Shown: positions 25,389 to 58,967 of the stretch, one piece after another
How the letters are laid out: every line of letters begins with the position of its first letter
Position numbering within the stretch: the first letter of the stretch is position 1
Program-made: the position numbers and the translations under genes
The notes under the pieces: model-generated
Databases searched by the model: none
The model's input: only the letters and a program-made list of their open reading frames with translations
Told to the model about the DNA's origin: nothing
Virus record (IMG/VR): IMGVR_UViG_3300029993_000005
Location: 166,111 to 230,110 of that record
From: a virus
DNA: 64,000 nt
Reading direction: 5' to 3' (one strand)

Positions 25389-25745
25389 CTATTTAGCGTT
25401 GATAATGCCAACCAATTTGTAGTAGCCATTGGTGTTACAGATAAACTGCAGATTTTTAATTTTTGACAGGTCCTTCATCAAATTATGGATTTCTAAGATT
25501 CCGCTAGGGTCCCAAGACGTACCTCTGAGGCCCGGAATACTGCTTTTACTAGCCTTCAAATAGATCGATATGACATTATCCGCTTCTTCACCATAACTAA
25601 CTCCATCAATAATATGGTGCTTGGAGAATTCATGTTTCAAAAGTTCAGCAATTTCTGGATTTGAGGCCTCAAGTTGTGCAAAACCTGGATCGCGACTAAT
25701 ATCTGTTGCCACTAATCTTTGTGCTGCATTAACTTTGATGTTCAT
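25389..25745 (-). CDS. AAxRL-tagged unknown protein
   Basis: 118 residues beginning MNIKVNAAQRLVATDIS, that is, with the AAxRL motif at residues 7-11. The rest is a small alpha/beta domain (NVISIYLKASKSSIPGL, NLQFICNTNGYYKLVGI). It overlaps the stop of the upstream tagged gene by four bases (25742-25745), so the two are co-translated. If the motif is a capsid-loading tag, this would be an internal head protein. Confidence 0.75.
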   Translation of the reverse strand: MNIKVNAAQRLVATDISRDPGFAQLEASNPEIAELLKHEFSKHHIIDGVSYGEEADNVISIYLKASKSSIPGLRGTSWDPSGILEIHNLMKDLSKIKNLQFICNTNGYYKLVGIINAK

Positions 25746-27067
25746 TTGCTATCCTTTGATTGTTGATCAAGTTCCTCTTGTGCTTTGGTCCACGCAGCGT
25801 CAGGTATATCACCTGACTCAACGTAGTCAGCAATTGCATCAATCACTTTACCTACAAGTTCGTCGTCCAGTTTATCGCTAGTTTCGGCTGTAATCAGTCT
25901 TGAAGCAATGCTTAAGGTTAGTGAACTATGGACACCATGTCGACTATTTTTGGTGCCTGGTCCACCTTGACGTTGACGGCGGTCTATTTCTTCGTCGCTT
26001 AATGTATCATATTCGTGTTTGGATAGCGGTACCCAATCGCCGTTTTTCCAATATCCATATTTATTTGCTTCAGCTTCTTCATCTGACCACCCTTTCTTTC
26101 TAGGCTTATCGTTTCCTAGTTTCTTAATGCTCGATCCAGCACCGACCACACCTTTCTTTACCAGACTATATATTGCCGGTGCACCCAAGTGCTTAACAGC
26201 CATGAAAGCTACTAGTCCAACACCACCTGAGGCACCCAGTACACCAGCCATAGCTGCACTGCCTAGGATATTACCGACCATTGATGCAATCTTCTTTACA
26301 TCGCCTTCCTGCGTCTTACCATTCAATAGTCTGTGAGTTGCACCAATACCCGATAGTAGGCCTCCACCGTCCCTTATAATGCCTCTAATCAACCCTTTCT
26401 TCTTAGCCTCAGCTTTAACCTTGGAAGCTGCGGTTTTGCGTTGTGGACTACTTGGTTTCTTATCCTCTGGTGTTATTTTGGGTTTACTGCTTTTAGTAGG
26501 TGCTTTAACCGGCACCTTAGACTGGGGTTTTGGTTCAGGACTATCCACTCCTGACTTGTCCTTAGCTTCAGGTTTCCCTTTAGCTTTAGGTTCAGGAGCA
26601 GAATTGGGTTCAGGTTTCAACAAATCTTTCTTATTCTGCTCAAATTTCTCTTGTTCGGTTTTGGGTGCGGGTGTGGCTGCGGGTTTCTGCTTCTGAGTTT
26701 CGCTTATTGATTTAGGCAACGTCTTCTGATCCCTGGTCACGGTCACCGGCTGATTACGATCAGTGGGTCTAGATTTGGGTTTATTGTCCTCAGATTTTAT
26801 GTCATCCGCGTACTTGGAACCCGGATGTTCCTCAACGTAGTCTTCTTGTTCTGGTTTTGAGAGCTTATCAAACCATTCTTCATTGAGTTTGTATTCTTTG
26901 TCGGGTTGAGGGTTATTGACCTTATAGAATTTATTAGGCTGATTCTTTTTGACTGGCTTTTTAGTCTCTAACGGCTGAGGTCTAGTGCTCTGCATTTGAG
27001 CCTGCCCCGTAGGTGCTGCACTAATAGTTTGGGTGCTCAATAATCGAAAAGCAGCGTTGAGTTTCAT
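25742..27067 (-). CDS. AAxRL-tagged Lys/Pro-rich protein with two motif copies
   Basis: 441 residues in three parts. The N-terminal motif MKLNAAFRLLSTQ leads a long disordered Lys/Pro/Glu-rich region (about 20-215). A hydrophobic Gly/Ala-rich region (about 225-310, e.g. ILGSAAMAGVLGASGGVG) may insert in a membrane. The C-terminal part carries a second motif copy (SIASRLITAETSDK, near residue 386) before a final acidic helix. Two motif copies suggest proteolytic processing into separate peptides. The composition and hydrophobic segment fit an ejected or internal head protein. Good AGGA ribosome-binding site. Confidence 0.78.
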   Translation of the reverse strand: MKLNAAFRLLSTQTISAAPTGQAQMQSTRPQPLETKKPVKKNQPNKFYKVNNPQPDKEYKLNEEWFDKLSKPEQEDYVEEHPGSKYADDIKSEDNKPKSRPTDRNQPVTVTRDQKTLPKSISETQKQKPAATPAPKTEQEKFEQNKKDLLKPEPNSAPEPKAKGKPEAKDKSGVDSPEPKPQSKVPVKAPTKSSKPKITPEDKKPSSPQRKTAASKVKAEAKKKGLIRGIIRDGGGLLSGIGATHRLLNGKTQEGDVKKIASMVGNILGSAAMAGVLGASGGVGLVAFMAVKHLGAPAIYSLVKKGVVGAGSSIKKLGNDKPRKKGWSDEEAEANKYGYWKNGDWVPLSKHEYDTLSDEEIDRRQRQGGPGTKNSRHGVHSSLTLSIASRLITAETSDKLDDELVGKVIDAIADYVESGDIPDAAWTKAQEELDQQSKDSK

Positions 27068-27112
27068 TGTTGTTCCTGATCATAATTTGGTCCATAACTA
27101 TTCGGCGCATAA

Positions 27113-28047: not shown

Positions 28048-28066
28048 ATAAGTCTAACAAAACATT

Positions 28067-28573: not shown

Positions 28574-28599
28574 AATACACCTCTAGGTTTAATGATTAA

Positions 28600-28634: not shown

Positions 28635-28673
28635 TGATTGATGATTAAAATAACAATAGGTTGATCAATCAAA

Positions 28674-29078: not shown

Positions 29079-29085
29079 AAGTGTC

Positions 29086-29859
29086 TCAGCCCAATGGTTG
29101 TTGACCCATGTTAAAGAGTCGAGGATCAGCATCACTTAAGACCTCGTGTTCTAAGACCTGCTCTCTAGTCATATTGGCTTCTTGATCCTCGTTCAAAACA
29201 CCGGGCAACGATTCGTACATAAAGCCATCTGATTTAGAAGTCGATGGCGGACCGGCCTCTAATTGTTTTTGACCTTTCTTTTGCTTAGCATAGCTTTGGT
29301 TATCACCTTCTTCGCCAATCATTTGATAGCCGTCAAATAAGCCTGGCATCCCATCTGTATCCACAGTCGAATTAGCAATCCTAGGTTTAACTTTAGATTT
29401 AACTTTAGATTTAAGTTTAAGTTCGGCCCTAGCTACTGGACGCTGCTTAGTATTAGGTCTACGCGTGGACTCTTCTAGTGCAGCGTTCTCCATGTCCATT
29501 GTTAGGGGGTCGTCCTCAGCACCGGATTCAATACGAAACAAACGTAATGCAGCCTTAATCTTAAGATAGGCCTGGGCGTGGGCGTACTGAGCATCAGTTT
29601 GTTGGGTCGTCGGATTCTTGCTCACTGGTGTAGAACTAGCTGTAGTGTCCGTGCCCGTGTCTTTAACTGCTGTTTTATCCATAGCTGATTTAGGGCTAGT
29701 GCTAGTGCTTTCTTTGTTCTCAGTCGTTTCCCTGGTATCTTGCTGATGCTCTAACTGCTTTTCGTTCTGGGACTTGAAATCTGTAGCTGGTGCTATTACG
29801 TCTGAATTCGACTCAGCAACTAGTCTGAATGCTGCCCTTACCTCGGTTTTAATTTGCAT
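29086..29859 (-). CDS. AAxRL-tagged acidic protein with two motif copies
   Basis: 257 residues, largely disordered. Motif copies are at residues 9-13 (AAFRL followed by VAES) and 103-107 (AALRL followed by FRIES). Between them is a Thr/Ser/Asp-rich linker; after the second copy come a basic KSKVKSKVK stretch and an acidic tail. The two copies each end in a Glu-Ser, which would suit cleavage by a T4-like prohead protease. Likely an internal head or scaffold-associated protein, by inference. Confidence 0.75.
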   Translation of the reverse strand: MQIKTEVRAAFRLVAESNSDVIAPATDFKSQNEKQLEHQQDTRETTENKESTSTSPKSAMDKTAVKDTGTDTTASSTPVSKNPTTQQTDAQYAHAQAYLKIKAALRLFRIESGAEDDPLTMDMENAALEESTRRPNTKQRPVARAELKLKSKVKSKVKPRIANSTVDTDGMPGLFDGYQMIGEEGDNQSYAKQKKGQKQLEAGPPSTSKSDGFMYESLPGVLNEDQEANMTREQVLEHEVLSDADPRLFNMGQQPLG

Positions 29860-33877: not shown

Positions 33878-34297
33878 TTACTTTTTCTTGGTAGGAATCA
33901 ATTCAGCCAAGGCTTTAGCAAACAGAGCTTTAGCCAATGCCTCTTTATCATCCGTCTTATCCTCGTCCTCAACAGCCTCGTCTTCTACTTCTTCAGGCTC
34001 GCCTTCGGGTTCGGCTTCAGCCTCAACCTCTTTACCCTCTTCGTCTTGGTCACCAACCAGATGATCCAGAGCTTTTTCTTCAGCCGCTTTTACCTTAACT
34101 TTCTTGGCATTAGCCGTAGCCTCTACCTTGGCTGTGTAGGCCTGAGCATTATTATGCTCAAGAATAGCGATAGCCGACTGCACGTCCGGTTGGCTAAGAG
34201 CTTTAGCAAAAAGAGCTGCTGCCGTTTTAGGCTTGCCCTTTGATGCTTGCTCCATGGCCAATACCACGTAGTCCAAGGACTTGTTGTAAGTCTTCAT
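33878..34297 (-). CDS. Acidic Ala/Glu-rich protein, possible head core protein
   Basis: 139 residues. A helical N-terminus (MKTYNKSLDYVVLAMEQASK) is followed by AALFAKAL, a Lys/Ala region, a very acidic central stretch (about 80-120), and a second ALFAKALAEL before a Lys tail. The repeat of A-x-LFAKAL at both ends is notable. Composition resembles prohead core or internal proteins. It lies directly between the capsid and tail genes. No family is firmly recognised. Confidence 0.72.
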   Translation of the reverse strand: MKTYNKSLDYVVLAMEQASKGKPKTAAALFAKALSQPDVQSAIAILEHNNAQAYTAKVEATANAKKVKVKAAEEKALDHLVGDQDEEGKEVEAEAEPEGEPEEVEDEAVEDEDKTDDKEALAKALFAKALAELIPTKKK

Positions 34298-35535: not shown

Positions 35536-36627
35536 CTACACACGTAAACCTTTCGCGACGGATCTGCTGTTGGCGATAGACACGGCCAAACTTTCATACA
35601 TCACCCATCCGCGACCCGGAATACGCTCAATAGAAATGTCGATAGGTTGCGATTGCAGGCCACCACGATCCGAGTAAGCACCGTGATTCAATGCATCGGC
35701 AATGACGAAGAACTCACCTTGGTTCAACACCTTATGTTCCGGATGACGATAAGCGTCCGAAGTAATCGTGCAACCATACATCACACCCAGTTCACCGGTC
35801 AGCAACAACTCGTGACGTGCAACCGGATCAATGGCGGCAAAGAAATCCGAATTACCGATGATGTCCTGATAGATATCGGTAGCGATCAGGACATGCGGTG
35901 CTTTCAGGCCCCAGCGCGTAACGTTCGTCATTACTTGAGCGAACGTGTAGGGCGTAAGCTGACCTGAGATAATCGACAGCGGATTATCAATACCTACGAT
36001 CTGATTCACCTGGTTGTACCACAAGCGATCTTCACCCACCATGATTGCTTCGGTTGCTTCAACATACTTCTCTTGCAGAACGTCGCCAGCTGATTGGTTC
36101 AACTCGTTCATCGGAATAAACGGACGAGTAACGACTTGCATTTCCGGCGGTGTAAACCATTTATCGCGAGTGATCTGCGACTGAATCTTGGTGGGGCTAG
36201 TCGAGTACACAGCCGTTACGTTTTTAGTACGCAAGGGGAACCGTGGGATAGCGCCTTGCTCGACGGTAATCTTCGTCAAGTACTTGCGCATAAAACCCTG
36301 ACGATTTGCCGTGATATACAAAGAATCGCTAATCTTTTCACCCAAGACACGATGGGCTTCTTTGTCGTTGAACGCTGCTTGCACTAGTTCGCGACTAAGC
36401 TTGACTTGTTGCTCTGCGCTAGCAAATACACCATCAGCAGCCAAGGAACCATTCGAGGATGCAGCCAAGAACTTTTGTTGGCGGTTAATAAGGTCACGTT
36501 TATCCGATGCATTAATTTCACCGTTACGACCAATTGCACGCTCACCTTCTTGCATGCCGTCGAAACGATACTCGGATGCTGCCACCATTGGCGTCTTCGA
36601 CGCCCGAACCTGAACTTTTGTACGCAT
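35536..36627 (-). CDS. Major capsid protein (HK97 fold)
   Basis: 363 residues with HK97-like capsid features of SPO1-like and jumbo myoviruses. The N-terminal extension (about 1-80, MRTKVQVRASKTPMVAASEY...) has several possible protease sites and may be trimmed. The core includes SDSLYITANRQGFMRKYLTK, IPMNELNQSAGDVLQEKYVEA, the E-loop/P-domain helices, ELLLTGELGVMYGCTITSDA and the ending VMYESLAVSIANSRSVAKGL. The gene follows scaffold and decoration genes in the usual head-assembly order. GGAG lies eight bases upstream of the start. The start of the protein resembles the AAxRL leaders only loosely (VQVRAS). Confidence 0.9.
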   Translation of the reverse strand: MRTKVQVRASKTPMVAASEYRFDGMQEGERAIGRNGEINASDKRDLINRQQKFLAASSNGSLAADGVFASAEQQVKLSRELVQAAFNDKEAHRVLGEKISDSLYITANRQGFMRKYLTKITVEQGAIPRFPLRTKNVTAVYSTSPTKIQSQITRDKWFTPPEMQVVTRPFIPMNELNQSAGDVLQEKYVEATEAIMVGEDRLWYNQVNQIVGIDNPLSIISGQLTPYTFAQVMTNVTRWGLKAPHVLIATDIYQDIIGNSDFFAAIDPVARHELLLTGELGVMYGCTITSDAYRHPEHKVLNQGEFFVIADALNHGAYSDRGGLQSQPIDISIERIPGRGWVMYESLAVSIANSRSVAKGLRV

Positions 36628-37533: not shown

Positions 37534-39177
37534 TTAAGCAAAAGGCAAAGGAGCTTTACCCGAAAGCACGGCCGCAGCATTTACCGAATAACCGGTTGAG
37601 CTTGCCTTTACTTCGTTGATACGGCGATGAATCGGTCCACGCAACAGCGCTGCTTGAACCGTGTTGGGGGCCTGTTCTTCTGCAAATTCATCGTTGAACT
37701 CGTCATCAGAATCACCAGCAGCGAATTCCGATTGAAAATCCGGGCTAGCCGAGTCACCGAACAAGTCTTCTTCGTCATCAGTGCTGGTGCCTGCTTCATC
37801 GCTAGTCATGTCCAAGGCAGATGCAAATGCATTACGTTGAACTTCAGGCAAGCCCGAAAGTTTGTTAGCAACAGTGAGAATCGATTTAGCGTAATCCACA
37901 CCGTAGCTAGCAAATACCCGACGAACTAACGACACGCCACCGCGAACACCTGCAGCCTGCAATTCTTCTTCTAGGGCTGCACGCAGTTCATTGCGCGTAT
38001 CCTTGAAGTACTGTTTGTTGATGCCAACAGCAGCAATTGCCAAGCATTGATTCAGGGCATCGTTAGAAACTTGATTAGAACGACGAACGGCAGCTGTCAA
38101 TTTAGCGGCTTTAGCCTCAACACGTTTGTTCAGTACTTCTTGAGAACCTACGTTGACGGTGGCCAGTACAAATCCCATCTTTTTCAAGCCCGCACGCAAG
38201 CCATGTTTTTGCATCTCAACTTCAGTTACTTCCTGGAATTGATCCGACAAATACATGTCGCCATGACCCGCTTTTACAGCTACTTTTTTGCCCAGAGATG
38301 CAACAATACGATTAGCTTTAATTGCGTGAACTCGGGTCCCCACAGTAGCGAATACAACGTCGTCGCCTTCATCATCCGTACCATCTACGTCCAACAAGGC
38401 TACGTTGTCTGCTTTATCAGCAACGGGTGCAACTTCAAGCTCATCCGAATCTTCAGTGTCCGTGTCCGTGTCGTCTTCGTCGTCAAACTCCGAATTAACT
38501 TCTTCGGCGTCACCGGCGTCCCAGTTATCATCAACTTCCAACAGCGATTGAGGATTGTCACCGTCTTTCAATTCGACTTCCTCGTTATCGAAATCGGCAT
38601 CGACTTCATCTGCTTCCTCCGTATCATCCGAATCTTCAGTGTCAGTGTCTGCATCTGAGCCAACCGTCAAATAACCGGCAGCAGGATCAACTGCATTCGG
38701 AAGATTAGTGGTTGCTTGCTGGCCCGGTACATTCGGATCGTTGTCAGCCTTAACTTTATTGGCTTTCAAGGTTCCAGAATCAGGACCACCGGCTTTAAAA
38801 TTAGCATCAGCATCGGGACCTTTAACCGTATCTAGATCAACTTCATCAGCTGCATCATCAGCGTCCAATCTGGCTTGCGCAGGATGTTTCTTGGGCGAAA
38901 CCTTCGACAGAGGAACTGGTTTAGTTTTACCCGGCTTAGCCGCTGCCGTGGTTCGACCCCCGTTGTTCATCTTCGATTTCTTGTTGTATTCTTCGTTGTT
39001 ATTGAAGTGTGTAGAACCGCCTTCGTCGTCCTCCGGATCAGTCAGAGTTTCCGGCACTTGATGGTTCAAAGCCTGTTGACCATTATCGTCAGCGGGCTTC
39101 GTCGTGTTATTTGGAAAATGCGTGCTGGTGCTAGACTGGGCTTCAGCTTCGACTTTCCGCTTGGTACCGATGGTCAT
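37534..39177 (-). CDS. Acidic scaffold / prohead core protein
   Basis: 547 residues. The first 275 or so are disordered and strongly acidic, with Asp/Thr/Glu-rich stretches such as DADTDTEDSDDTEEADEVD. A folded helical region (about 280-445) includes LRAGLKKMGFVLATVNVGSQ and VRRVFASYGVDYAKSILTVA. A second acidic segment and a C-terminal tail (GYSVNAAAVLSGKAPLPFA) follow. Composition, size and position immediately upstream of capsid and downstream of the protease gene are those of a scaffold that is cleaved during head maturation. No T4 gp22 signature is visible. Confidence 0.75.
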   Translation of the reverse strand: MTIGTKRKVEAEAQSSTSTHFPNNTTKPADDNGQQALNHQVPETLTDPEDDEGGSTHFNNNEEYNKKSKMNNGGRTTAAAKPGKTKPVPLSKVSPKKHPAQARLDADDAADEVDLDTVKGPDADANFKAGGPDSGTLKANKVKADNDPNVPGQQATTNLPNAVDPAAGYLTVGSDADTDTEDSDDTEEADEVDADFDNEEVELKDGDNPQSLLEVDDNWDAGDAEEVNSEFDDEDDTDTDTEDSDELEVAPVADKADNVALLDVDGTDDEGDDVVFATVGTRVHAIKANRIVASLGKKVAVKAGHGDMYLSDQFQEVTEVEMQKHGLRAGLKKMGFVLATVNVGSQEVLNKRVEAKAAKLTAAVRRSNQVSNDALNQCLAIAAVGINKQYFKDTRNELRAALEEELQAAGVRGGVSLVRRVFASYGVDYAKSILTVANKLSGLPEVQRNAFASALDMTSDEAGTSTDDEEDLFGDSASPDFQSEFAAGDSDDEFNDEFAEEQAPNTVQAALLRGPIHRRINEVKASSTGYSVNAAAVLSGKAPLPFA

Positions 39178-39504: not shown

Positions 39505-40410
39505 CTATAAAAACTGCTGAGGTTTTGAACTTCCAGGGACATCTAAATCTGCTTTTACTTCTGACGTCCAAGGATACTCAACCCAATCTGAAAGGGCTGA
39601 CGCCCAAGCTGGATCCCGAACAATGGAACACTCTATCGGACTTATTCCGTGAGCATTCAAAAATGCTAAATGCGATGAGCCATCATAATCTTGATAGCGT
39701 TTCCAATTGACGTTGTCCGTACCTGAAGTATGTGAGCAACGTCTGTCCTTAGAGCAAACGGTTCCGCAATAACCGCAGGTAAAACTATCGACTAGAGCAC
39801 CCATAGAATAAGTATTAATTGTTCCATCTAAAACCTGTTGAGCAATGTCCGGATACTTATTTTTATCAATGCCTAAAAGACCCATCACTTTCCACAGTTT
39901 TCCATTCCCATAACCCTGGACTTTATTGAAAGATGCGTCAAAGATAACTCCATGTGCCGTGGAGCAGTCCTCATTGGAATGTTCCTCATGGATCGGGCAA
40001 CCTACCCAGGCCTTATAAGACAATCTGTTTATTGGTGGTGGTTGAAATCTTACTAATTCGGAACGCGGAAATGCAATGCCGTTTCGATTAGGAAGATCGG
40101 ATGGACATATAATAGTCCGGACCAATATGTAGTCTTCAATACGGGGCGAAATTTTGTAGACCGGAGCACAGAAGGGTAGCCATGTTGCGTAATCCAGTTC
40201 ACTAATTCGCGCCATTTCTTTTTCAGCTTCAAACGTTTCGATTGATCGCTGAAGGTTATCTACTGAGTTGGTTTCTAACGTGCGTTCTAGAGGCACAGTA
40301 TCGGCTGTAACTTGATGCTGGTATTTAGCAACACTAAGCTTTTGGTGGGCACTGACACTGACACTGGCACGGGCACTCAGAAATGATTTTGGTACCTGAA
40401 GGTTAGCCAT
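39505..40410 (-). CDS. Putative prohead (head maturation) protease
   Basis: 301 residues. The arrangement PNRNGIAFPRSEL, GCPIHEEH (His141/His144), AHGVIFDASF and INTYSMGALVDSF (Ser202) matches the His...Ser order of myovirus prohead proteases that digest scaffold and trim capsid proteins. Unusually, a Cys cluster (Cys212, Cys215, Cys219, Cys225, His227) follows the putative catalytic Ser and looks like a zinc site. The N-terminal 35 residues (Ser/Ala/Lys-rich) may be self-cleaved. The gene lies just upstream of scaffold and capsid. If the AAxRL motif marks capsid cargo, this is the enzyme that would clip it. Confidence 0.72.
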   Translation of the reverse strand: MANLQVPKSFLSARASVSVSAHQKLSVAKYQHQVTADTVPLERTLETNSVDNLQRSIETFEAEKEMARISELDYATWLPFCAPVYKISPRIEDYILVRTIICPSDLPNRNGIAFPRSELVRFQPPPINRLSYKAWVGCPIHEEHSNEDCSTAHGVIFDASFNKVQGYGNGKLWKVMGLLGIDKNKYPDIAQQVLDGTINTYSMGALVDSFTCGYCGTVCSKDRRCSHTSGTDNVNWKRYQDYDGSSHLAFLNAHGISPIECSIVRDPAWASALSDWVEYPWTSEVKADLDVPGSSKPQQFL

Positions 40411-44300: not shown

Positions 44301-46026
44301 GTAAACTTTTTCCACCCCCTGCTTGTACGGGTAGAATTGCTAGGTCAGGACTGTCCTTCAGTAAATTGCGTACTTTCTTTTGATGCGGCAAGAACCCAAT
44401 ATTCGGAGCCAGCAACGGAATAGCTGGAATTTCCCAATCAGGATCAACACCCTGATTAATTGCTGCATACCGATTGGCCTCATCATTGGTGCGTACCCAT
44501 TCCATCCGTGATGCATATTTAGCAATCAGGGTTAGCCAGGGCAGCATTTCAGTAACAGAGGCTACACTCCATTTCGTGTACACGGCCTCCAGGTTTTCAT
44601 TGATAGCTGTTTCAAGGATAGCGAAATACCGGGCCAATGATCTGAATGGCCCGAAACCTGTTTCGCTTATTTCGGAAAACTTAATTGATGATCGATCTTC
44701 ATATCTTTGATGAAGTACCACAGATGCTTTAAACCAGTCTTGTGGACCGGCCGCACTATCAAATGTATGTTGAAGCTGCGGCTCTAGGGCTAGGCCCTCA
44801 AAATCCGAATCTTGAATGCATGAACGAAAGAAATTGGGATCAATGCCTGCGCTCTTGCCCATGCGAGCAAACCAGTCTACTTTTTCTGACGTAATAAACC
44901 GGTTGTCCAACAGTTCACGGATGTGCGAAATATCTGCCTTGCGATGACGTGTTAGGTCCTCAACATGCAAGTTTCCCTGAGTGTTGGTGTACGAAAATTT
45001 GTTGTTCACCCAGTCAAGGGCCACCACCATGTTATGTGGGAGTTGCGTCCTAGCGTCAGTTTGTGAGCCTAATTCTAGGTTAGCTGAGGCTAGAGTAGAT
45101 AAAGCAAAACAATCGTTGTGAGTCCCGGCCTGTGCATAGCGATCTTCATAAACAATTGCGTTATTTCGATCTACTGTTAGAGGAATAAATTCGGGTTCGC
45201 CAACAGGTGAAATAGAAATATTGTACTTATTTGTACGAGCGGATTCAACGTGATCTGGAGGCAAGCCAAACACGATTTTCGAAATCGGAAACGAAGCAGT
45301 GCTAGGCAGTCCTCGTTCGCCAAAGCCTGAACCTACCCAGTGCAGAATCAATGGATAGATATCGATGTCACGAATCTGAGACCACTCGGTGGTCGTTAGT
45401 TGTTCGGCCTCGTCCTTAGCTATTTTGAAGTCCGCAAAAATGATGTACAGATGTCCTCTAACTTGGACTTTTAATTCTAAGAAGCAATTGAGCAACGCCT
45501 GTTTAGTTGTGGCCTTGATGTCTTTCAGGTTAGCGATAACAGTAGCTGCCGGGACACTTCTTGTGGACACAAAAGAAAGGGATTCGTCACCCAAAAGTTC
45601 AGCAAATTCTTTGTACTCTTGAACCTGCTGCATGTTGGCTTCTGGACCATGCGTTTTCTCACCCAGAAACCAGTCTTTCAAGAAGGCTAATGGCGCACCC
45701 CACGTGTCCTTGCTAAAAGATGCCAGCGGCAATGACACCTCGTAATGAGGAATATGTGCATCGTCTACTTTGTTGATTGATAAATAGGTCTTCGGATTTA
45801 TTTTTCTTAATTTTTCGGCCAACAATCGACTGGAGCCACGGCGTGGGTCTGCAACAATCGAAGGAAAGAAGGTTGACGCCCACAAAGTAGTCAGAAAGAA
45901 AGACGGACTCCCACTGTATTTTTCTGTGTAGAAATGCATGAAGCGCTCACCCATAAGACGTCGGTTGAGCTTCAGGTGCTGAGGTACCACCAAATTCGAT
46001 TTGGGCCTTAGCTTGTCTTTTAGCAT
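41368..46026 (-). CDS. Giant SNF2-type SF2 helicase/ATPase (1552 residues)
   Basis: A very large superfamily 2 protein. About 550 N-terminal residues are unrecognised, then a SNF2-like motor: LPHQKKVRNLL, motif I PVQAGGGKSLL (near residue 570), LCPGHLVSNYVKEV, motif II SALDEAHRVKN (near 692), motif III LASGTMVHDSPSD, and motifs V-VI in SMNEGLNFQHSDRLIRC and GTLEQGNSRIDRP (near 1027). A further 500 residues follow, including an acidic linker (SDSDDDDENEFSDDSGSD). It is placed within the virion gene block rather than the replication operon. Phages such as P1 pack very large helicase-domain proteins in the head to counter restriction; a virion role here is inference. Confidence 0.85.
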   Translation of the reverse strand: MLKDKLRPKSNLVVPQHLKLNRRLMGERFMHFYTEKYSGSPSFFLTTLWASTFFPSIVADPRRGSSRLLAEKLRKINPKTYLSINKVDDAHIPHYEVSLPLASFSKDTWGAPLAFLKDWFLGEKTHGPEANMQQVQEYKEFAELLGDESLSFVSTRSVPAATVIANLKDIKATTKQALLNCFLELKVQVRGHLYIIFADFKIAKDEAEQLTTTEWSQIRDIDIYPLILHWVGSGFGERGLPSTASFPISKIVFGLPPDHVESARTNKYNISISPVGEPEFIPLTVDRNNAIVYEDRYAQAGTHNDCFALSTLASANLELGSQTDARTQLPHNMVVALDWVNNKFSYTNTQGNLHVEDLTRHRKADISHIRELLDNRFITSEKVDWFARMGKSAGIDPNFFRSCIQDSDFEGLALEPQLQHTFDSAAGPQDWFKASVVLHQRYEDRSSIKFSEISETGFGPFRSLARYFAILETAINENLEAVYTKWSVASVTEMLPWLTLIAKYASRMEWVRTNDEANRYAAINQGVDPDWEIPAIPLLAPNIGFLPHQKKVRNLLKDSPDLAILPVQAGGGKSLLLITDILYEIKENSNDPYIVLCPGHLVSNYVKEVAYFTNGQLNVLAITNSAIRQLGFARLQTLFEQAPRNTVVFVAYDTLSYVPKGFNRIINYGTTPIQVFPVIDFLRQFDFGYSALDEAHRVKNNTARTRAAMMLITDIPKKRLASGTMVHDSPSDLALQIMALDPTLFGSRENFNNTYGLIVKSDRVVEWKPGAQVQIMLKIRSRIVEARAMRKEWAALLPSKREWIGGVTLTPNQQSVYNDLLAGALKKMQEDSIKGSRKKALALRKFFAQDVEGEAPEDFDYDNPVDEDSGELTETAIMPYLATLEQFIIAPGKIAPDQLQGEDAISPKVLAILERVRLHIFGGLITDPDTGEKVQYGPFPGKVLIFTNNIISAEEIYELAGPELKECGILYKAHRKIEDGAKYEKIKTIRWMAGVEASMNEGLNFQHSDRLIRCESPWNPGTLEQGNSRIDRPELKKEEFRKEIFFDTVVADRTIDITKSARLISKVIAAAKFENADNAEYSTIPDVPTISMTIDSIIEFNSWVALGPDNPGLLDYAKAQAVYVKVRDEDYRQYKEDYIAKYGKAPALELIPVAEAPADTKLLTSTVYTPGMNLFGAEALGLIRIDEFLNLNTNIDSDSDDDDENEFSDDSGSDQVSIERKQKAQELKHRLVHTEYGNGYISKCAPNNALITIDLLNSYSVQTHKSQVFLLAPDSVAHDTREQLLTLVGDFPVTRSINTLATSWKPSKGLAAKIKKQETKIKVREYKVRERQRKADTTIRLEFVVANGFLGIDYVMTNSSQAAIQLLTKCGLRPMSDFYYSEVKNAAALRNQFKLWRQKGLTPDPSVYKNGVRESLQAMLHLLVEEEVSDHESVVKALSKSKTVNFYQLQHKPNNDKHVYKPYPMIQNGVPYLVLPAVGQAGTKAAMRFKRPTYEWHKSESTMSFYGSVKEVRDVVRKIVALGMTITNAKSLSREFNKLRKLKFRQTENNTI

Positions 46027-47301: not shown

Positions 47302-47751
47302 TTAACCCGCACTTTCAGTCAGACGTAAAGCGGCTTTGAGTTGCATGGGTGCAACGCCGTCACTAATCATTGCATCTTTGTCACCGTCAATTCCGGTCCC
47401 CACATCGTTGATGCCAACACCGTCATTTAATGTTGAATCCTGCAATGCTTGCTGGCTAGTAGTTCCCGCTGGTGCCCCGTCATTTAACACCAAGTCTTCA
47501 ACGCTAGTTGTGTTCGGATCGTACTCGCCGTCCAGCACTTCTTCGCTCTCTGTCTGGGGTGGTTGAACTATTTCAGCCACTACTTCTTGTTCAATTTCGT
47601 TGGTGTCGGCCAACATGGCATAAGCAATTGATTCTAAACTTTCATGATCAACACCAACGGACTCAGCCAGCGCGTGGAACTGAGCATCAGACGGTTCAGG
47701 ATTGATCTGAAGAAACAAAGCAATTAGGCTTACAAGTTTTTGATTATCCAT
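47302..47751 (-). CDS. Unknown acidic protein with C-terminal AAxRL motif
   Basis: About 149 residues from MDNQKLVSLIALFLQ at 47751 (frame open to 47775). A helical domain at residues 1-50 is followed by an acidic, Asp/Gly-rich linker. The last residues are MQLKAALRLTESAG, the AAxRL motif at the extreme C-terminus. Placement at the C-terminus shows the motif is not only an N-terminal leader. It lies directly downstream of another tagged gene. Confidence 0.72.
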   Translation of the reverse strand: MDNQKLVSLIALFLQINPEPSDAQFHALAESVGVDHESLESIAYAMLADTNEIEQEVVAEIVQPPQTESEEVLDGEYDPNTTSVEDLVLNDGAPAGTTSQQALQDSTLNDGVGINDVGTGIDGDKDAMISDGVAPMQLKAALRLTESAG

Positions 47752-47764
47752 GACAGGTTTCTCT

Positions 47765-48145
47765 CTATAGGGCACGCAATTGGGACAGGACTTCGTCTAG
47801 TCCAGGTACCTTTTTATTTACTTCCGTTGCTGCTTTTCCGATTGAAGCCAGTAAGCTTTGATCATCCGAGCCTTCGGCCTTTAATTCGTACTTGTATTTA
47901 GAGGCCTTGAAATAAAAGTTTAAGTCCTCATCAACCGTACTGAAGTTCAAGACCGCTTGATACTCGGAAGTGCGCCAGATCAAAGACTGGTTGGTAGACG
48001 ATCTATCATCCAGCAGAAAATGAATGCCTAGAATTCTTTTTAGAATGGTCAGCACGTTTTCCACGTCCTCGGGACCTGCCTCTATGTTGGTGCCTTTCTC
48101 ATCGGCGTCTGCCAATAGGCGTAGGGCTGCTGTGATCATGGTCAT
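47765..48145 (-). CDS. AAxRL-tagged unknown protein
   Basis: 126 residues starting MTMITAALRLLADADEKG (motif at 6-10, or 3-7 from the second Met). The rest is an alpha/beta domain (NVLTILKRILGIHFLL, LNFYFKASKYKYELK). AAAGG site. No family recognised; grouped with the other tagged proteins. Confidence 0.75.
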   Translation of the reverse strand: MTMITAALRLLADADEKGTNIEAGPEDVENVLTILKRILGIHFLLDDRSSTNQSLIWRTSEYQAVLNFSTVDEDLNFYFKASKYKYELKAEGSDDQSLLASIGKAATEVNKKVPGLDEVLSQLRAL

Positions 48146-49010: not shown

Positions 49011-49358
49011 TCAAATGGAAAAGAAAATTCTTAACGCTACCTGCACGCGCTGCAAGCATACGCCGTCGTTACCCTTAACCGCGAACGAAACCCTTTTGAA
49101 TATTCCAGGGCTTGCATTCATGGCGTACTTTAAACGGTTCAAAACTTCAACAGAGGCTTCGGCCTCACGTCCAACATCCTCTGGATTGCTCTTGTGGAAC
49201 ATCAAATGTGGGTGTACGAATTTATAAATTAAGCCGTGCTTGCGCAACTCGGCCTGTATTTTACGAAGCTCATCACCTTTACCTTCGTGAATTTGAGCCT
49301 CTACTTTTTGTTCTTCATCTTCTATAGCTTTCAGTCTCTGAGCTGCATGCACGTACAT
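49011..49358 (-). CDS. AAxRL-tagged unknown protein
   Basis: 115 residues, MYVHAAQRLKAIEDEEQK (motif at 5-9 followed by KAIE). A charged helical first half is followed by an alpha/beta second half (LIYKFVHPHLMFHKSNPED, KRVSFAVKGNDGVCLQRV). AAGGA site. No family recognised. Confidence 0.75.
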   Translation of the reverse strand: MYVHAAQRLKAIEDEEQKVEAQIHEGKGDELRKIQAELRKHGLIYKFVHPHLMFHKSNPEDVGREAEASVEVLNRLKYAMNASPGIFKRVSFAVKGNDGVCLQRVQVALRIFFSI

Positions 49359-49918: not shown

Positions 49919-50215
49919 TTAGTGCCAGTAACTTAAGTTCAGGTTTCCACCGTGGACCCCAATAGAGATTTCATGATTGGCTTTGGTGTACGTGTCCAGG
50001 CCGTCAACTTCGGATGCCTTCTTTGCGTAGCTAAAACCTGCGATCTCTAAGTTATGAATAAAACGTGCGGCCTTTTCATAAGCATCTTTAGGTGAACTGC
50101 ATCTGAAAATATTGGTGCCCAGTTTAAGTTTGAACCCACCTTCTTTTTCTAGGTCCTCACCGGCATAAACCGTAGTAGTTGAGGCCAGTATTCGCTGACG
50201 TGCATTTGTTTTCAT
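49919..50215 (-). CDS. Unknown small protein with a variant AAxRL motif
   Basis: 98 residues, MKTNARQRILASTTTVYAG. The N-terminus has the variant NARQRIL in place of NAAQRL. The rest is a small alpha/beta domain (NIFRCSSPKDAYEKAARF, HEISIGVHGGNLNLSYWH). The same class as the tagged proteins, with lower certainty for the motif. Confidence 0.7.
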   Translation of the reverse strand: MKTNARQRILASTTTVYAGEDLEKEGGFKLKLGTNIFRCSSPKDAYEKAARFIHNLEIAGFSYAKKASEVDGLDTYTKANHEISIGVHGGNLNLSYWH

Positions 50216-51754: not shown

Positions 51755-52525
51755 TTATCCTTGAACGGGTGTACTTGGGAGCATTATATTATTGACGCCC
51801 ATACCTGTTCGTGTAGGGTGGTCCCCAAACAAATCAGGCTCTGAATTTAAATCCTCTGTCGTGGTACCGAACCCAGGTTCGTCAACTAGTTTGGCACTAA
51901 CTGAAGAACCGAGGTCCTTTAAGTCTTCAAAACTAAAAGAGGTTCCCAGCATCAAAAGTCGTATCAAATGTGACTTAGCTATTCTTTCTCTAGTCTTTGG
52001 TGACAATATTTCGAGACCCATCAGGTCAATAAGATATGTAGGGAACACTGAAGCTAGGTTCCTCCACAACAGGTTGGCGGCTCTAGAATGTGAGTCACCG
52101 GTCATCAGACAATTACCGGCTTCAAGAAACCATGAATAGATACTTGATACTATTTTCTGCTTCTGATGATCGGGATTAATCTCAGCATGAGGCGTGTATA
52201 GCTTGTTGCCCAGGGCACTTTTCAACTCCATGGTTTTACCATTGAACTGTGTGGCACCAATGCTATTAAAAGTCACCAACCCCACTAAAGAATCTTGAGG
52301 ATAAGCATCAAGTAAATCGTCATGGATAAAAATATAGAAACTATAATTAAAGCTAGCTACGGTCAGCCAAATATTAGGTCTATCTGTTTCGACTATCCGT
52401 AATTCACCTTTCGCCTGAACCCTTAGCCATTCTTTGATAACAGCATCATGATCGTAATTAGGGCCTTCAAATGTACGGAGGGCCAGCAGTCTTGATGCTG
52501 CATAAACTTTAGTTAAGCCTTCCAT
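51755..52525 (-). CDS. AAxRL-tagged unknown protein
   Basis: 256 residues, MEGLTKVYAASRLLALRTFEG (motif AASRL near residue 9). An alpha/beta domain (IWLTVASFNYSFYIFIHDDL) is followed by a helical part (SSIYSWFLEAGNCLMTGDSH) and an acidic, Gly/Pro-rich tail. No family recognised. Grouped with the presumed capsid cargo. Confidence 0.75.
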   Translation of the reverse strand: MEGLTKVYAASRLLALRTFEGPNYDHDAVIKEWLRVQAKGELRIVETDRPNIWLTVASFNYSFYIFIHDDLLDAYPQDSLVGLVTFNSIGATQFNGKTMELKSALGNKLYTPHAEINPDHQKQKIVSSIYSWFLEAGNCLMTGDSHSRAANLLWRNLASVFPTYLIDLMGLEILSPKTRERIAKSHLIRLLMLGTSFSFEDLKDLGSSVSAKLVDEPGFGTTTEDLNSEPDLFGDHPTRTGMGVNNIMLPSTPVQG

Positions 52526-52545: not shown

Positions 52546-53829
52546 TTAGAACTGCAATAGTTTAGCTATCTGGAGGCCCGTGAATCCAAATTTGGAACCC
52601 AAAACCTCAGCGTCATGAGGAATGACCGCCGATTTAATACCCGAGGTTAGAGGTTCAAACGATATGAATTTCGCACCAATCTTCACTCTAAGTTTTACGA
52701 CCGGACTATTGGCAAACAAACGTTTGACCTCAAGATAAAGCGGATACTTAATTTCGTCTATCTGTTCGACAGTAGTATTCGCTTTGAGTCTAAAAGATAT
52801 ACATTTAGCATCAACGTCAACTTTCTTTATATAATCACAGTAGTTAAACATAGAAGCACTGAACTTGGAAGGATCATTCTTCATTCTGGTAGACAGTGGA
52901 ATAGCAGCTAGGCTAGTACTGAAGTTCTCTTGTTCCAAAAGTTTGTCTATCACCACTAAGGCTTCGTTCAATGAACTAACCTCGGAACCGCCATCAACTA
53001 GTAACAGATTGGGTAAGTCAAATTCATGATTAACCTGAATTTGAATTCCTTGGTTCACAGTCCATTGAAGGCTGATGTAGAGATGGGGCGTTACCTGTAG
53101 GTCATCATTCTTTACGTTCTTTAGCAAGATGTAATCCGTAAAGATTAGGGCTCCGTCTTTGACACTGACGTACAAAAACTGTTCCTTGTGCTCGAATATA
53201 ACGTGCTCTTGAAGCTCTTGGACTAATGTCGATACGTAGCTCTGAAACACTTTAGGTACGTAGTGTGAGGCCACGCTGCTCAAGAATTCTAAAACGTTTT
53301 TTAACTGAAAGCCAATCTTGTCCTTCAGTGCTTTTAACAGTCCGTAGGCCTTCGTGTAAGGCTCGCCCCGCTTATCCGTGAACTGTATAGCCAACTGCGT
53401 TTCTAGGGCCTCTAAAGCCCTGTATTTCTCGTACAAGTCTTCTGACAATACATATTGCGTATTCAGCTGTTCAATTTTGGGAACCAAGGTCTTCAAGGAC
53501 TCATGATCAGGATCAGTTTGAGTCTCGCCGTCTAGACTCAAGCCGCTGGCCTTAACTAGGCAGGGATGAGTGTGGATTTGTGCCTGATTTAATTTTGCTA
53601 GTTGTTGCTGCTGGACTCCACTTAGCTGACTTAATTCTTTAACCGTGCTTCCCGTCTGGTCAAGAAATCGAGCAACATCGTCAATATATCGGAACTTAGG
53701 TAGCTCCAAGGCACAAATACGAGCAGCTGCCTTGACTTGAGTTCTTGGTTTATTTTTTGACGTTTTAACGTTACCTGTTTTATCTTTAGTCGTGCTTGCT
53801 TTCAATCTCTGGGCTGCATTGGTAGCCAT
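52546..53829 (-). CDS. AAxRL-tagged protein with two motif copies (427 residues)
   Basis: Preferred start at 53829 (MATNAAQRLKASTTKD), because AAGG is correctly spaced from this ATG. A second copy follows soon after (VKAAARICALELPKF), so residues between them form a basic 30-residue spacer. The remainder is a larger helical and alpha/beta protein (VLEFLSSVASHYVPKVFQSY, PHLYISLQWTVNQGIQIQV). No enzyme motif recognised. Two closely spaced motif copies hint at stepwise trimming. Confidence 0.75.
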   Translation of the reverse strand: MATNAAQRLKASTTKDKTGNVKTSKNKPRTQVKAAARICALELPKFRYIDDVARFLDQTGSTVKELSQLSGVQQQQLAKLNQAQIHTHPCLVKASGLSLDGETQTDPDHESLKTLVPKIEQLNTQYVLSEDLYEKYRALEALETQLAIQFTDKRGEPYTKAYGLLKALKDKIGFQLKNVLEFLSSVASHYVPKVFQSYVSTLVQELQEHVIFEHKEQFLYVSVKDGALIFTDYILLKNVKNDDLQVTPHLYISLQWTVNQGIQIQVNHEFDLPNLLLVDGGSEVSSLNEALVVIDKLLEQENFSTSLAAIPLSTRMKNDPSKFSASMFNYCDYIKKVDVDAKCISFRLKANTTVEQIDEIKYPLYLEVKRLFANSPVVKLRVKIGAKFISFEPLTSGIKSAVIPHDAEVLGSKFGFTGLQIAKLLQF

Positions 53830-53876
53830 GATCATCCTTAAGCTAATGTGCTGGGCTGTGCTTGTCTGATGTTAAA

Positions 53877-55623: not shown

Positions 55624-55626
55624 TGG

Positions 55627-55977: not shown

Positions 55978-56439
55978 TTAGTACATCAAAAGGCTAGTTC
56001 TAATACCACGTTTGTTGAGCAACGCCAAACCTTTGTTGTCTCTATAGTAATCGGCAAAGACAACCTCGGCAATACCTGTTCTTTGAATTAGTTTCGCGCA
56101 CTCAATACAGGGTGCGTGCGTACAATAAAGCGTGGCACCAACAGCGCTTACCGTAGATGCTGCTAACTTTGCACAAGCATTCATTTCAGCGTGACTGACC
56201 TCATCGTTGGTCTTCAAACCGAAATGCATTACATAGCTGTTACCTACATCGGATCCTGACAGTACCGAATGTTCACATGTATTGTCGTAACCCTGGGGCA
56301 TGCCGTTCCAACCATAGGACACCACAGAGTCATCCTTCACAATTACGCAGCCTACTTGAAGTCGTTGAGCATGACTTCGTTCGGCTGCACGTTTAGCAAA
56401 GTCCATGTACATTTTGTCATCGTCTAGAGGCTGAGTCAT
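55978..56439 (-). CDS. Deoxycytidylate (dCMP) deaminase-like protein
   Basis: 153 residues of the zinc-dependent cytidine/dCMP deaminase family. Zinc ligands and catalytic Glu are in VSHAEMN (His83, Glu85) and APCIECAK (Cys111, Cys114), with the family's GWNGMPQGYDN segment (43-53). It converts dCMP to dUMP, feeding dTMP synthesis during phage replication; close relatives act on dCMP rather than cytidine. No Shine-Dalgarno is evident before the ATG. A TAGTAAATA element lies 27-37 bases upstream. Confidence 0.9.
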   Translation of the reverse strand: MTQPLDDDKMYMDFAKRAAERSHAQRLQVGCVIVKDDSVVSYGWNGMPQGYDNTCEHSVLSGSDVGNSYVMHFGLKTNDEVSHAEMNACAKLAASTVSAVGATLYCTHAPCIECAKLIQRTGIAEVVFADYYRDNKGLALLNKRGIRTSLLMY

Positions 56440-56465
56440 TATTGTATTTAGTTGTTGTATGAACC

Positions 56466-56476
56466 CTATTTACTAG
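56466..56476 (-). promoter_or_regulatory. TAGTAAATA element upstream of the deaminase
   Basis: On the minus strand CTAGTAAATAG, overlapping the stop of the NUDIX gene and followed by GGTTCATACAAC and the deaminase ATG at 56439. Confidence 0.5.
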
Positions 56477-57048
56477 CGGATCGAAAGTTCGGAGTTAACC
56501 AATCTGGATGCTGCATTGACTTTGACACCCGTGCTTAAATTCTGTGCTCTACGTTTCAAGGCTTGCTCCAACACGAATTGCACATGTGGATCATCCAGTA
56601 CCGCTTTAAGTCCTGGATGCATTGGCTGAGGCCATTGATTGAAAGCTGTCCAAATAGCAGCCGTCGATTCTGACCTGAATTCTGATTCTGGGTTGACTAC
56701 GAACTGCTTGGGGACAGTAACAAAATAAGTGTGGTACTCAAAGCCTTTTCCATTTCTGGATACCTTGAGCGGCATTACAGACCACTCACCGTTATAGCCG
56801 GTCTCTTCTCTGAGTTCCCGGCGTAGGGCATTGACCAAGTCTTCTGCGCCGTCAACGGAGCCACCCCACGTTCCGTAGCAATTCGGTGTATCAGAATGAG
56901 GACCACGTAGCTGGAAACTAAAGTTACCGGTGTCTAGGGCCAGTACTAAGGCTCCGACTGCTTGGTGATATCCTCTGATGCCGGGTCCCCAATTCTCTTT
57001 ATCCTTAGACGCCTCTATAGCAATAAGTCGTGACGCTGCTTTTATCAT
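56473..57048 (-). CDS. NUDIX hydrolase with AAxRL motifs at both ends
   Basis: 191 residues from the ATG at 57048, one base after the upstream stop (the frame is open far upstream to 57135). A complete Nudix box spans residues 63-85 (Gly63, Glu69, Arg77, Glu78, Glu81, Glu82, Gly84), so it should hydrolyse a nucleoside diphosphate linked to another group; the substrate is unknown. The protein starts MIKAASRLIAIEAS and ends VKVNAASRLVNSELSIR, with a motif copy at each terminus. The DNA of the two copies uses different codons. Tagging at both ends is unique in the window and suggests a packaged enzyme. Confidence 0.9.
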   Translation of the reverse strand: MIKAASRLIAIEASKDKENWGPGIRGYHQAVGALVLALDTGNFSFQLRGPHSDTPNCYGTWGGSVDGAEDLVNALRRELREETGYNGEWSVMPLKVSRNGKGFEYHTYFVTVPKQFVVNPESEFRSESTAAIWTAFNQWPQPMHPGLKAVLDDPHVQFVLEQALKRRAQNLSTGVKVNAASRLVNSELSIR

Positions 57049-57049
57049 T

Positions 57050-58498
57050 TTATAGTCCACTGTCAGTTCGAAAATTAGAAAAGGCCCACACATCTGAGTC
57101 GTCGTGCTCGTCGTCATACAGTTCACGATTTGCATGGGCTAGGGGCGTCCAATCGCTGTAGACCGCAGCAATAGGCCCAAGGAAGGGCGAAGCGATGTTT
57201 AACACGAATTCAAATGGTAGGTCCTCTGGTTCGCAATAACCTTGATTAGGATTGTCCAGCATCCAAACAATAGCACCTAACATTGAACCCACTACCTGCA
57301 ATGTTGTTGCGTTTTGCCCTTCTACCAGTTCCCGTGATTCTTCGATAGAAAGTTGCGATCCGTACCACAGGGCATTCCGTTCATGACCTAGAAGCAAGAC
57401 CCCTAGTTCATCGATTCCGCTCTGAATACTATTTTTAGCAATTCGGGTCTTTCTGTGCATCCACAATTCTTGTCCCTTCATTTCATGGACAGACGCAATT
57501 GCAGCATCACACGGTTGATACGCATAGTAACAGGTCGGTCGATAATTCTCTGTACTAAAGTATTCGCTGATAGTGATGGCTTCCGAGTGCTGAATCAAAT
57601 AGCCGTTGAATGTACCGCCCAAAGGTACCCACGACTTAACCGTGGTCTCCACACCCGGTTGCTCTAGATAGAGCACAGAGCCACCAGCGAGTTCTTTACC
57701 GTCAGCAGGAATCTCTTTTTCGTGCGTGCCCCACCCCATTTCTGCTGGTGCTCGACCCTCAGCCCAGAACCCTTCACAGCTCCAGGTGTTGACGAATTCA
57801 TTAACACGCTTGGGTTCTTTCAGAATTTGTGTATCGCGCTCAGCCGTTTGAATTATTTTCACATTCAGGGCTTCAGCTAGCATTCCCCATTGCTCTTGGG
57901 ACTCAGGGGTCCCTGTTTTCAGACCTGTATCTTTTGCGAGTTTGAGCAACGCCGCTTTAACAAAATGCGAAACTAGACCTGGATTAGCTCCATGCGTCAC
58001 CACACAGGTAGAGGCCCCAGGATAGGCCGAGGCCATTCTTCGCATTTCTTGATGCGTTGTGTAGAGCGTGCGTTCACCCAGTTCCGGAATGATTTCGTCG
58101 GGTTCAGTAGCCCAACGTTCGATAGACGTGTCAATGTAGAGCACATTATTTTGTAGGCACCACTCAACGATTTCTAGTCCGTCTATGTTCAAGCTTACGT
58201 TAATCAGTAAGTCACCGGGACTCAATAATTCATTTAGTGTTGGCACCAAATTAGATTTGACGATTTCACGATGAACGTAAGTTACACCCAAATCTTCGTA
58301 TTTAGCAAATTCAGGGCGTACCTCTTTATCCAGAACGACTACCGCGCTAGGACTTACATCGAGGTGACGTAGAATTACGGGGAGAATCGATTGACCAACA
58401 CCACCGAAGCCTAGGACCAGGATATGTCCTCTGTGAGTTGCTAGTTTTTCGTGTTGATCCTCCAGCAGTCGTTGTGCAGCGTGTATTTGAACCTTCAT
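57050..58498 (-). CDS. Homospermidine synthase-like enzyme with AAxRL tag
   Basis: 482 residues from the ATG at 58498, which has AAAGGA upstream (frame open to 58537). After the tag MKVQIHAAQRLLEDQHEK comes an NAD-binding Rossmann motif VLGFGGVGQSILPV (about 28-41), then the family's DTSIERW, VVTHGANPGLVSHF and YAYQPCDAAIASVHE segments. The full sequence follows bacterial homospermidine synthase, which makes homospermidine from putrescine and/or spermidine with NAD. The polyamine could neutralise packaged DNA or modify the host. A metabolic enzyme carrying the motif is strong reason to suspect packaging. Confidence 0.85.
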   Translation of the reverse strand: MKVQIHAAQRLLEDQHEKLATHRGHILVLGFGGVGQSILPVILRHLDVSPSAVVVLDKEVRPEFAKYEDLGVTYVHREIVKSNLVPTLNELLSPGDLLINVSLNIDGLEIVEWCLQNNVLYIDTSIERWATEPDEIIPELGERTLYTTHQEMRRMASAYPGASTCVVTHGANPGLVSHFVKAALLKLAKDTGLKTGTPESQEQWGMLAEALNVKIIQTAERDTQILKEPKRVNEFVNTWSCEGFWAEGRAPAEMGWGTHEKEIPADGKELAGGSVLYLEQPGVETTVKSWVPLGGTFNGYLIQHSEAITISEYFSTENYRPTCYYAYQPCDAAIASVHEMKGQELWMHRKTRIAKNSIQSGIDELGVLLLGHERNALWYGSQLSIEESRELVEGQNATTLQVVGSMLGAIVWMLDNPNQGYCEPEDLPFEFVLNIASPFLGPIAAVYSDWTPLAHANRELYDDEHDDSDVWAFSNFRTDSGL

Positions 58499-58529
58499 AT
58501 CAATCCTTTTAAGCACTTTCACTTTCAGC

Positions 58530-58967
58530 TCACGCAACGCTGATAATTTTTGTTTTATTTCCTATGTCCTCTAATTCTACTTCGTGCTCACCTTTACTGA
58601 AATGATTGACCTCGGCGGACCTAGCCTTTGCCCAGTCGTTTGCATAAAGCTTGGCCTCAACGTCTTTTAACGGCGCGTCAACGATCACGAAGTCCTCGTT
58701 GTCCGGACGTTCATACGCATACTGCAGTGTATTTACCCAACCCTCGAAAGCATCTGCTTCCATCTTGGAGACCGCGACTAGGCGTAAGGCTGCTTCAACT
58801 TTAGTGCTACCTGTCATTTTGTGATAAATATAATTAGTCAAAGCATAGGGCTCTTTCTTGCCGCTGCTTTTCTTGGCCTTATCCTCAGCGTCCTTCCATT
58901 TATGTTCAAGACTTTTCTTGCTACCTTTGCCTTGTTTTACGTCATGTTTAATTATGTTATTGGGCAT
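58530..58967 (-). CDS. AAxRL-containing unknown protein (motif internal)
   Basis: 145 residues from MPNNIIKHDVKQGKGS at 58967, with GGAG nine bases upstream. The N-terminal 50 residues are a Lys-rich helical segment ending YALTNYIYHKMTG, a pattern seen in other phage head-associated proteins. The motif AALRLVAVS follows at residues 59-67. The C-terminal domain is alpha/beta (EDFVIVDAPLKDVEAKLYA). This internal motif may separate a removable pro-region from the cargo domain. Confidence 0.75.
   Translation of the reverse strand: MPNNIIKHDVKQGKGSKKSLEHKWKDAEDKAKKSSGKKEPYALTNYIYHKMTGSTKVEAALRLVAVSKMEADAFEGWVNTLQYAYERPDNEDFVIVDAPLKDVEAKLYANDWAKARSAEVNHFSKGEHEVELEDIGNKTKIISVA

Follow-up and report, generated by a model that had tools for sequence, protein, structure and literature searches.

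Why should proteins that otherwise have nothing in common carry one and the same short peptide? The question is raised by the window analysed here, the last 64 kb (64,000 nucleotides) of the 230 kb virus record IMGVR_UViG_3300029993_000005, in which an initial annotation had noticed a peptide with the core A-A-x-R-[LI] on about a dozen proteins and had taken it for a candidate capsid-loading or processing signal. Judged from its head and tail genes, the phage is a jumbo myophage of the Sarumanvirus/Moturavirus kind: the major head protein (MCP), sheath, connector, protease and scaffold are homologous to those of that clade and similarly ordered, with MCP identities of 82% to Burkholderia phage BcepSauron and 61% to Achromobacter phage Motura, and PHROG profiles recognise the head maturation protease, a scaffold-like protein and the sheath in the window. 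Here, we report that the peptide, hereafter the tag, recurs on 10–18 otherwise unrelated proteins per genome in this phage and its relatives, and that there is good support for its acting, at the peptide level, as an address signal on proteins of the late region. With a probability of roughly two in three, the tag is a capsid-targeting sequence of the T4/P1 type with a sequence of its own, mostly N-terminal and sometimes internal or C-terminal.

Occurrence of the tag and strand distribution

All motif copies listed at the outset were found again, with gene starts revised to 47775, 53835, 57135, 58537 and 58985; the second copy in the gene starting at 27067 is present in a weaker form, IASRL, and the variant in the gene starting at 50215 reads ARQRI. 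Across the 230 kb genome AA.R[LI] was observed 18 times against 3.2 expected from shuffled proteins (maximum 8 in 200 shuffles), and within the first 16 residues it was found in 8 proteins against 0.26 expected (maximum 2 in shuffles). In a permutation control, AA.R[LI] was present in 9 N-termini and residue-permuted motifs averaged 0.09, while an unbiased search of N-termini returned A..RL.A and AA.RL as the top four-residue gapped patterns. When a position-specific profile was trained on 64 tags from relatives, none of them from this genome, it detected 17 sites here at a threshold of at least 8 bits (1.3 per shuffled proteome) and 15 at a threshold of at least 12 bits (0.15 per shuffled proteome). 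Two further tagged genes lie outside the window, at positions 10943-11296 and 158258-159061 of the record (G000).

The initial annotation had confined the motif to minus-strand genes among the head and tail genes, and this restriction stands. Each of the 17 strong sites lies on the minus strand (p about 3e-5), and the profile scan of this genome placed none in replication genes. In Motura, 17 of the 19 profile sites fall on the minority late strand (p about 3e-8), which holds only 28% of the coding residues yet carries the head and tail genes; Motura tags contributed to the profile, and this result accordingly tests the strand and not the existence of the motif. In these two genomes, in short, early proteins do not carry the tag as often as late ones. 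In 49 IMG/VR loci retrieved through the connector or the MCP, some of them on overlapping or repeated contigs including copies of this genome, the sense strand had 126 AA.R[LI] sites, 95 with an ATG just upstream, and the antisense strand 28 and 1, respectively.

Consensus and conservation

The core first described is present, and the conserved sequence extends well beyond it. The full consensus, M-(x0-3)-[K,Q,E]-[L,I]-[N,E,Q]-A-A-x-R-L-x-A-[A,T,S], or in short form M-K-[LI]-[NEQ]-A-A-x-R-L-x-A-[ATS], spans 10–12 residues, with Leu or Ile at position -2 in 57 of the 64 tags and Ala at +6, two residues past Leu, in 47. A downstream glutamate had also been counted as part of the tag; this did not hold, Glu being present in 12 of 64 tags at its best single position, a minority feature that does not define the tag, and a T4-like Glu cleavage as a general rule was rejected on the same ground. 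One way to parse the consensus is as a tandem pair of [KR]-[VIL]-x-A-[AST] units spaced six residues apart.

Selection on the peptide had been argued from differing codons, and the DNA bears this out. No two of the 15 AA.R[LI] cores share a DNA word, so it is the peptide that is kept and not the DNA, and a DNA-level repeat or promoter was rejected because all cores differ. GCA is over-used for the first Ala of the cores, perhaps reflecting the usual A-rich bias after start codons.

The tag is found clade-wide. Motura has M-x-I-Q-A-x-x-R-L on 11–18 proteins (about 16), BcepSauron and about 25 IMG/VR contigs likewise carry the tag, and 80 distinct tagged open reading frames (ORFs) were collected; gene calls in the relatives came from a simple codon-usage script, so per-genome counts may move by one or two. 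In orthologs at 25–45% identity the tag is invariant while the adjoining residues are unalignable. In the family of the 29086-29859 protein no alignment columns are invariant other than those of the tag A-A-x-R-L-x-A and of a DAD/QP at the C-terminus, and in that of the 49011-49358 protein four orthologs at about 40% identity all keep A5, A6, R8 and L9. The AlphaFold2 model of the latter has a predicted local distance difference test score (pLDDT) below 50 for residues 1-20 and about 90 for the domain; a Foldseek search with this model returned no significant match. Five orthologs of the 25742-27067 protein retain the tag, and the L092 ortholog of the 49919-50215 protein keeps an N-terminal tag (MKLNALKRLTA) followed by about 80 extra residues. 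Selection at the peptide level, by which the tag stays invariant while adjacent linkers diverge, is well supported by these alignments.

The suggestion that the signal tolerates different positions was borne out in part. Orthologs keep internal as well as C-terminal copies, the latter in BcepSauron 50612 and 53403, and BcepSauron 175135 has the tag at both ends; most tags are nevertheless N-terminal.

Related motifs in the head proteins

A half-motif, [KR][VIL]xA[AST], recurs in the proteins that build the head. In all close relatives examined the MCP starts with M-x-x-K-[VIL]-x-[VIL]-x-A-[AST]-[KR] or a close variant, and AASE or AATE is present in most of them, though not all. Scaffold N-termini commonly read M-A-I-x-K-K-x-V-x-A-A, four IMG/VR scaffolds (L104, L105, L109, L114) contain the full AAxR[LI] inside their acidic disordered region, and the disordered part of 25 scaffold entries holds 20 half-motifs against 1.4 expected. 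The acidic protein adjoining the MCP, a candidate core protein, has ATKRLKANE, ASKRIKASE or KKVKASEED in the orthologs of different relatives, and 25 such proteins hold 21 half-motifs against 4 expected. Untagged proteins are near background (32 against 26 in this genome, 39 against 36 and 43 against 29 in two others), and the tail sheath, tube and connector proteins are without the tag. The recurrence of the half-motif in MCP, scaffold and acidic core protein indirectly supports a link between the tag and head assembly.

Proposed function and alternatives

As a capsid-targeting sequence, the unstructured tag would bind the scaffold or core of the growing prohead, perhaps as a mimic of the same short motifs of core and shell or in competition with them. 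It would thereby bring varied accessory proteins, made late, into the prohead, where this cargo would be packaged with the DNA and later ejected with it into the next host. We infer that the prohead core or shell acts as the receptor and that tagged proteins are present in virions and, less surely, that the phrog_18299 head maturation protease cuts [KR]-[VIL]-x-A-[AST] units in core, MCP and cargo.

Several observations weigh against capsid targeting. The literature yielded no virion proteomics for the clade, and of the 14 proteins in a list, restricted to abundant ones, from virions of PaBG, a distant relative, none belongs to a tagged family; those tied to the window are the MCP, its neighbour gp81, the sheath and the helicase, none of them tagged, and a search for the tag in PaBG found none. 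Some tagged proteins have orthologs without the tag. The sequences behind the scaffold and core counts are related to one another, with a few duplicates among the scaffold entries, and one of the control patterns was raised as well. Scored against the full tag profile, the MCP N-termini come out near zero or below it, which makes the resemblance a loose one, and a looser form of the half-motif is found in 6–8% of untagged N-termini.

The best surviving alternative, unlikely in our view, is that the motif serves above all to mark where the head maturation protease cuts the scaffold, the acidic core protein, the MCP propeptide and the cargo, the cargo entering by other means or through binding to the protease. 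Half-motifs do repeat between acidic stretches of the scaffold and core protein, as for proteins cut at maturation; in PaBG the mass of the MCP falls by about 20% and several virion proteins undergo processing; and SPN3US cleaves after A-x-E with V/A preferred at P4, and MCP N-termini here often have VAASE. The tag, however, is longer and more invariant than the three-residue sites known for prohead proteases, most copies have no Glu, and several MCPs of the clade are without one (AASQ, VAQD). Cleavage at the C-terminal copies, in the last 8–16 residues, would also free almost nothing.

Next in plausibility, and already improbable, the tag may send late proteins elsewhere: to the tail or baseplate, the membrane, a phage-built compartment, or a host chaperone or protease in the manner of an N-degron. 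The late region also has tail genes, some tagged genes adjoin those for tail tube and sheath, and amphipathic N-terminal peptides can act in such targeting roles. Against this, it is the scaffold and core that carry related motifs and not the sheath, tube or connector that carry the tag, and internal and C-terminal copies fit poorly with an N-degron or a membrane insertion signal.

Inheritance from a common ancestor without present function, by paralogy or through one spreading N-terminal module, would agree with a synonymous codon identity among cores slightly above random (0.32 against 0.23) and with adjacent tagged genes in Motura that could be duplicates; it is very improbable, being contradicted by the invariance of the tag in orthologs with unalignable flanks, by the unrelatedness of the tagged families and by the diversity of the DNA words. 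Chance or composition, for which the high Ala content of the N-termini speaks and nothing beyond, is excluded for practical purposes by the shuffles, the permuted motifs, the antisense strand and the out-of-sample profile.

Capsid targeting may itself be part of something broader, a proposal that we would not yet back at even odds. One linear code, [KR]-[VIL]-x-A-[AST], would run the head of this clade, singly in shell, scaffold and core and in tandem on cargo as an address and perhaps a cut site, would work at the N-terminus, internally or at the C-terminus, and would exist in lineage-specific versions (AAxRL; VSLS; perhaps [IVL]xVxAS in Vibrio phage GR7B). If so, whole repertoires of injected effectors could be recognised in the sequence by itself.

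In T4 and P1, a few proteins are known to bear capsid-targeting signals. If the present tag is another such signal, finding which jumbo-phage proteins are injected becomes a sequence search, small proteins without an assigned role are flagged as early-acting effectors or counter-defences, delivery of a homospermidine synthase with the genome is suggested, and a short tag becomes available for loading chosen proteins into large phage heads.

Proteins that carry the tag

Most tagged proteins had no Pfam, PHROG or PADLOC match, the exceptions being a homospermidine synthase, a NUDIX protein, an SprT-like protein and a DUF3175 protein; one further tagged protein had a zincin match below cutoff. 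On the homospermidine synthase, NUDIX and SprT-like enzymes the tag is an extension. The homospermidine synthase homolog matches PDB entries at E-values of 1e-107 to 9e-119, and the solved enzymes align only from residue 32-37 of the called ORF, past the tag; its true start is probably M14 (MKVQIHAAQRL), as that of the NUDIX protein is probably M30 (MIKAASRL). It is tagged here and in L093, while the Motura homolog, named HSS (PMC9992855), lies in another region and is without the tag. By these alignments the tag is a modular add-on to normal enzymes, and the tag on the homospermidine synthase prompts one to ask whether the phage packages a polyamine enzyme along with its DNA. The small domain of the 58530-58985 protein has a BcepSauron counterpart with the same tag after the domain, at the C-terminus.

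One of the tagged proteins outside the window (L009:18261-19061, that is G000:158258-159061) has two DUF3175 domains and tagged homologs in BcepSauron and Motura, and DUF3175 looks like a recurrent cargo domain. Three tagged proteins of Motura and L092 (L049:12978-14645, L049:15009-16142 and L092:11501-12298) share invariant YR, S and ExE residues (R105, S134 and E213/E215). They had no useful Pfam, PHROG or PDB match, and a single-sequence structure model reached a pLDDT of 37; from these motif residues they are possibly ADP-ribosyltransferases of the R-S-E type, which is marked by R, S-x-S/T and E-x-E motifs on an ART fold. T4 Alt is an ADP-ribosyltransferase.

Table 1. Tag copies and related head genes in the window (window positions)
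Feature	Position	Strand	Remarks
AAQRL	25713..25727	-	residues 7-11 of 118-aa protein 25389-25745
AAFRL	27041..27055	-	residues 5-9 of 441-aa protein 25742-27067; A-A-x-R-L invariant in five orthologs
IASRL, weaker second tag	25895..25909	-	near C-terminus of 25742-27067; similar sequence there in several orthologs
AAFRL	29821..29835	-	residues 9-13 of disordered 257-aa protein 29086-29859
AALRL, second internal tag	29539..29553	-	residues 103-107 of 29086-29859
AALRL, C-terminal	47320..47334	-	protein 47302-47775, likely start lower; BcepSauron ortholog ends ISAARRLMGQ
AALRL	48116..48130	-	residues 6-10 of 47765-48145
AAQRL	49332..49346	-	residues 5-9 of 49011-49358; invariant in four orthologs; disordered in AlphaFold2 model
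ARQRI variant (MKTNARQRILAS)	50189..50203	-	protein 49919-50215
AASRL	52487..52501	-	residues 9-13 of 51755-52525
AAQRL	53803..53817	-	near N-terminus of 52546-53835; tagged in 2/4 orthologs
AAARI, second tag	53716..53730	-	residues 36-40 of 52546-53835
AASRL (MIKAASRLIAIE)	57025..57039	-	likely N-terminus of NUDIX protein 56473-57135
AASRL, C-terminal	56500..56514	-	NUDIX protein 56473-57135
AAQRL (MKVQIHAAQRL)	58466..58480	-	N-terminal extension of homospermidine synthase homolog 57050-58537
AALRL, internal (residue 65)	58779..58793	-	protein 58530-58985, after small domain
Acidic protein (core candidate)	33878..34297	-	adjoins MCP; KVKVKAA at 34082-34102
MCP (phrog_2522)	35536..36627	-	
MCP N-terminus KVQVRASK	36595..36618	-	clade form KVxVRA[AS][KR]TPxVAA; half-motif or close variant
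Scaffold-like protein (phrog_20988)	37534..39177	-	
Scaffold half-motif KVEAE	39142-39156	-	
Scaffold half-motif RLDAD	38857-38871	-	
Scaffold half-motif KVKAD	38743-38757	-	
Head maturation protease (phrog_18299)	39505..40410	-	E 8e-83; candidate processing enzyme

Other genes of the window and form of the genome

A papain-family cysteine protease (Pfam PF00112, E 3e-19) is encoded at 23709-24470, adjoining tagged genes; it was rejected as a general tag-processing enzyme, no homolog having been found in BcepSauron or Motura. Among the head genes, positions 41368-46026 encode a 1552-residue SNF2-type helicase without the AAxRL tag, whose PaBG homolog, mass-matched to gp202, was identified in purified PaBG virions (PMC7412058); by analogy, the helicase of this phage may be a virion protein. 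The late region also has two small ORFs for candidate acyl-carrier-protein-like proteins, at 60331-60573 and 61404-61682 (DSLDELELLIAIEDEF; DALHILDLALTVEREL), and at 63474-63968 an Ala/Ser/Trp repeat protein of the SAYWS type, several paralogs of which are encoded at other places in the genome (47-56 kb and 72 kb). Identical coding sequence, with 61 identical residues, is found at both ends of the record (1-353 and 229584-230110), so that the genome molecule is probably circular or circularly permuted. No near-identical phage was found by megablast.

Comparison with known systems

The literature search found no paper describing this tag, or a consensus common to at least a dozen unrelated cargo proteins across a clade, nor any study of virions from the present clade. 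Other lineages may have tags of their own. In Alexandravirus, Sasquatchvirus and Salmondvirus, jumbo phages of Erwinia and Dickeya with an MCP about 35% identical to that of this clade, M-x-I-x-[VI]-S-[LI]-S is found at the N-termini of 4–8 late proteins per genome, NUDIX included (loci L065-L078 of Erwinia phage pEa_SNUABM_3, L156-L169 of Y3 and L170-L182 of JA11). Like the present tag, this VSLS motif is N-terminal and sits on several different late proteins; the two differ in sequence, and both are known from sequence alone. The distant relative pEa_SNUABM_3 had no N-terminal excess of AAxRL, and no AAxRL-tagged family was found by BLAST to bear the VSLS tag. In Vibrio phage GR7B (L079-L089) the scaffold (MKRKISVIASH), the NUDIX protein (MTIKRLTVLASK) and two or three others, among them proteins starting MIKQVTVASA and MSIKRIEVASF, share [KR]-[IVL]-x-V-x-A-S; these five proteins were picked by eye, and the motif looks like a third type of tag. 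If tags do vary with MCP lineage, a lineage-specific head receptor would be the natural reason, which we offer as a lead and not a result.

SPN3US and phiKZ are likewise jumbo phages with many internal head proteins, whose N-terminal propeptides are cut at AxE or SxE (PMC5694885, PMC10052503). Those propeptides are mostly longer than 100 residues, and an N-terminus in common, as in two paralogs with 15 identical residues (PMC5694885, PMC10052503), is one between paralogs and not between unrelated families; here, no fixed x-E was found in the 64 tags.

In P1, fewer than 30 N-terminal residues of DarB suffice to load a foreign protein into the capsid, 30 such residues having packaged a reporter, and the Dar proteins share no consensus (PMC9024508), whereas here one consensus is found on many proteins.

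The T4 capsid-targeting sequence of IPI-III and Alt is likewise a short, mainly N-terminal peptide on unrelated late proteins, with accessory enzymes and defence proteins as cargo (PMC3012670, PMC5694885), and the internal proteins of T-even phages are varied defence proteins that have only this conserved sequence in common (PMC3012670). The present tag differs in its clade-specific consensus, described from its own clade only, in its about 15 carriers per genome, in its internal and C-terminal copies, in having no invariant Glu as cleavage residue, and in that its loading and processing are proposed from sequence. What it has in common with the T4 signal is one feature of that type, a short peptide shared by otherwise unrelated late proteins.

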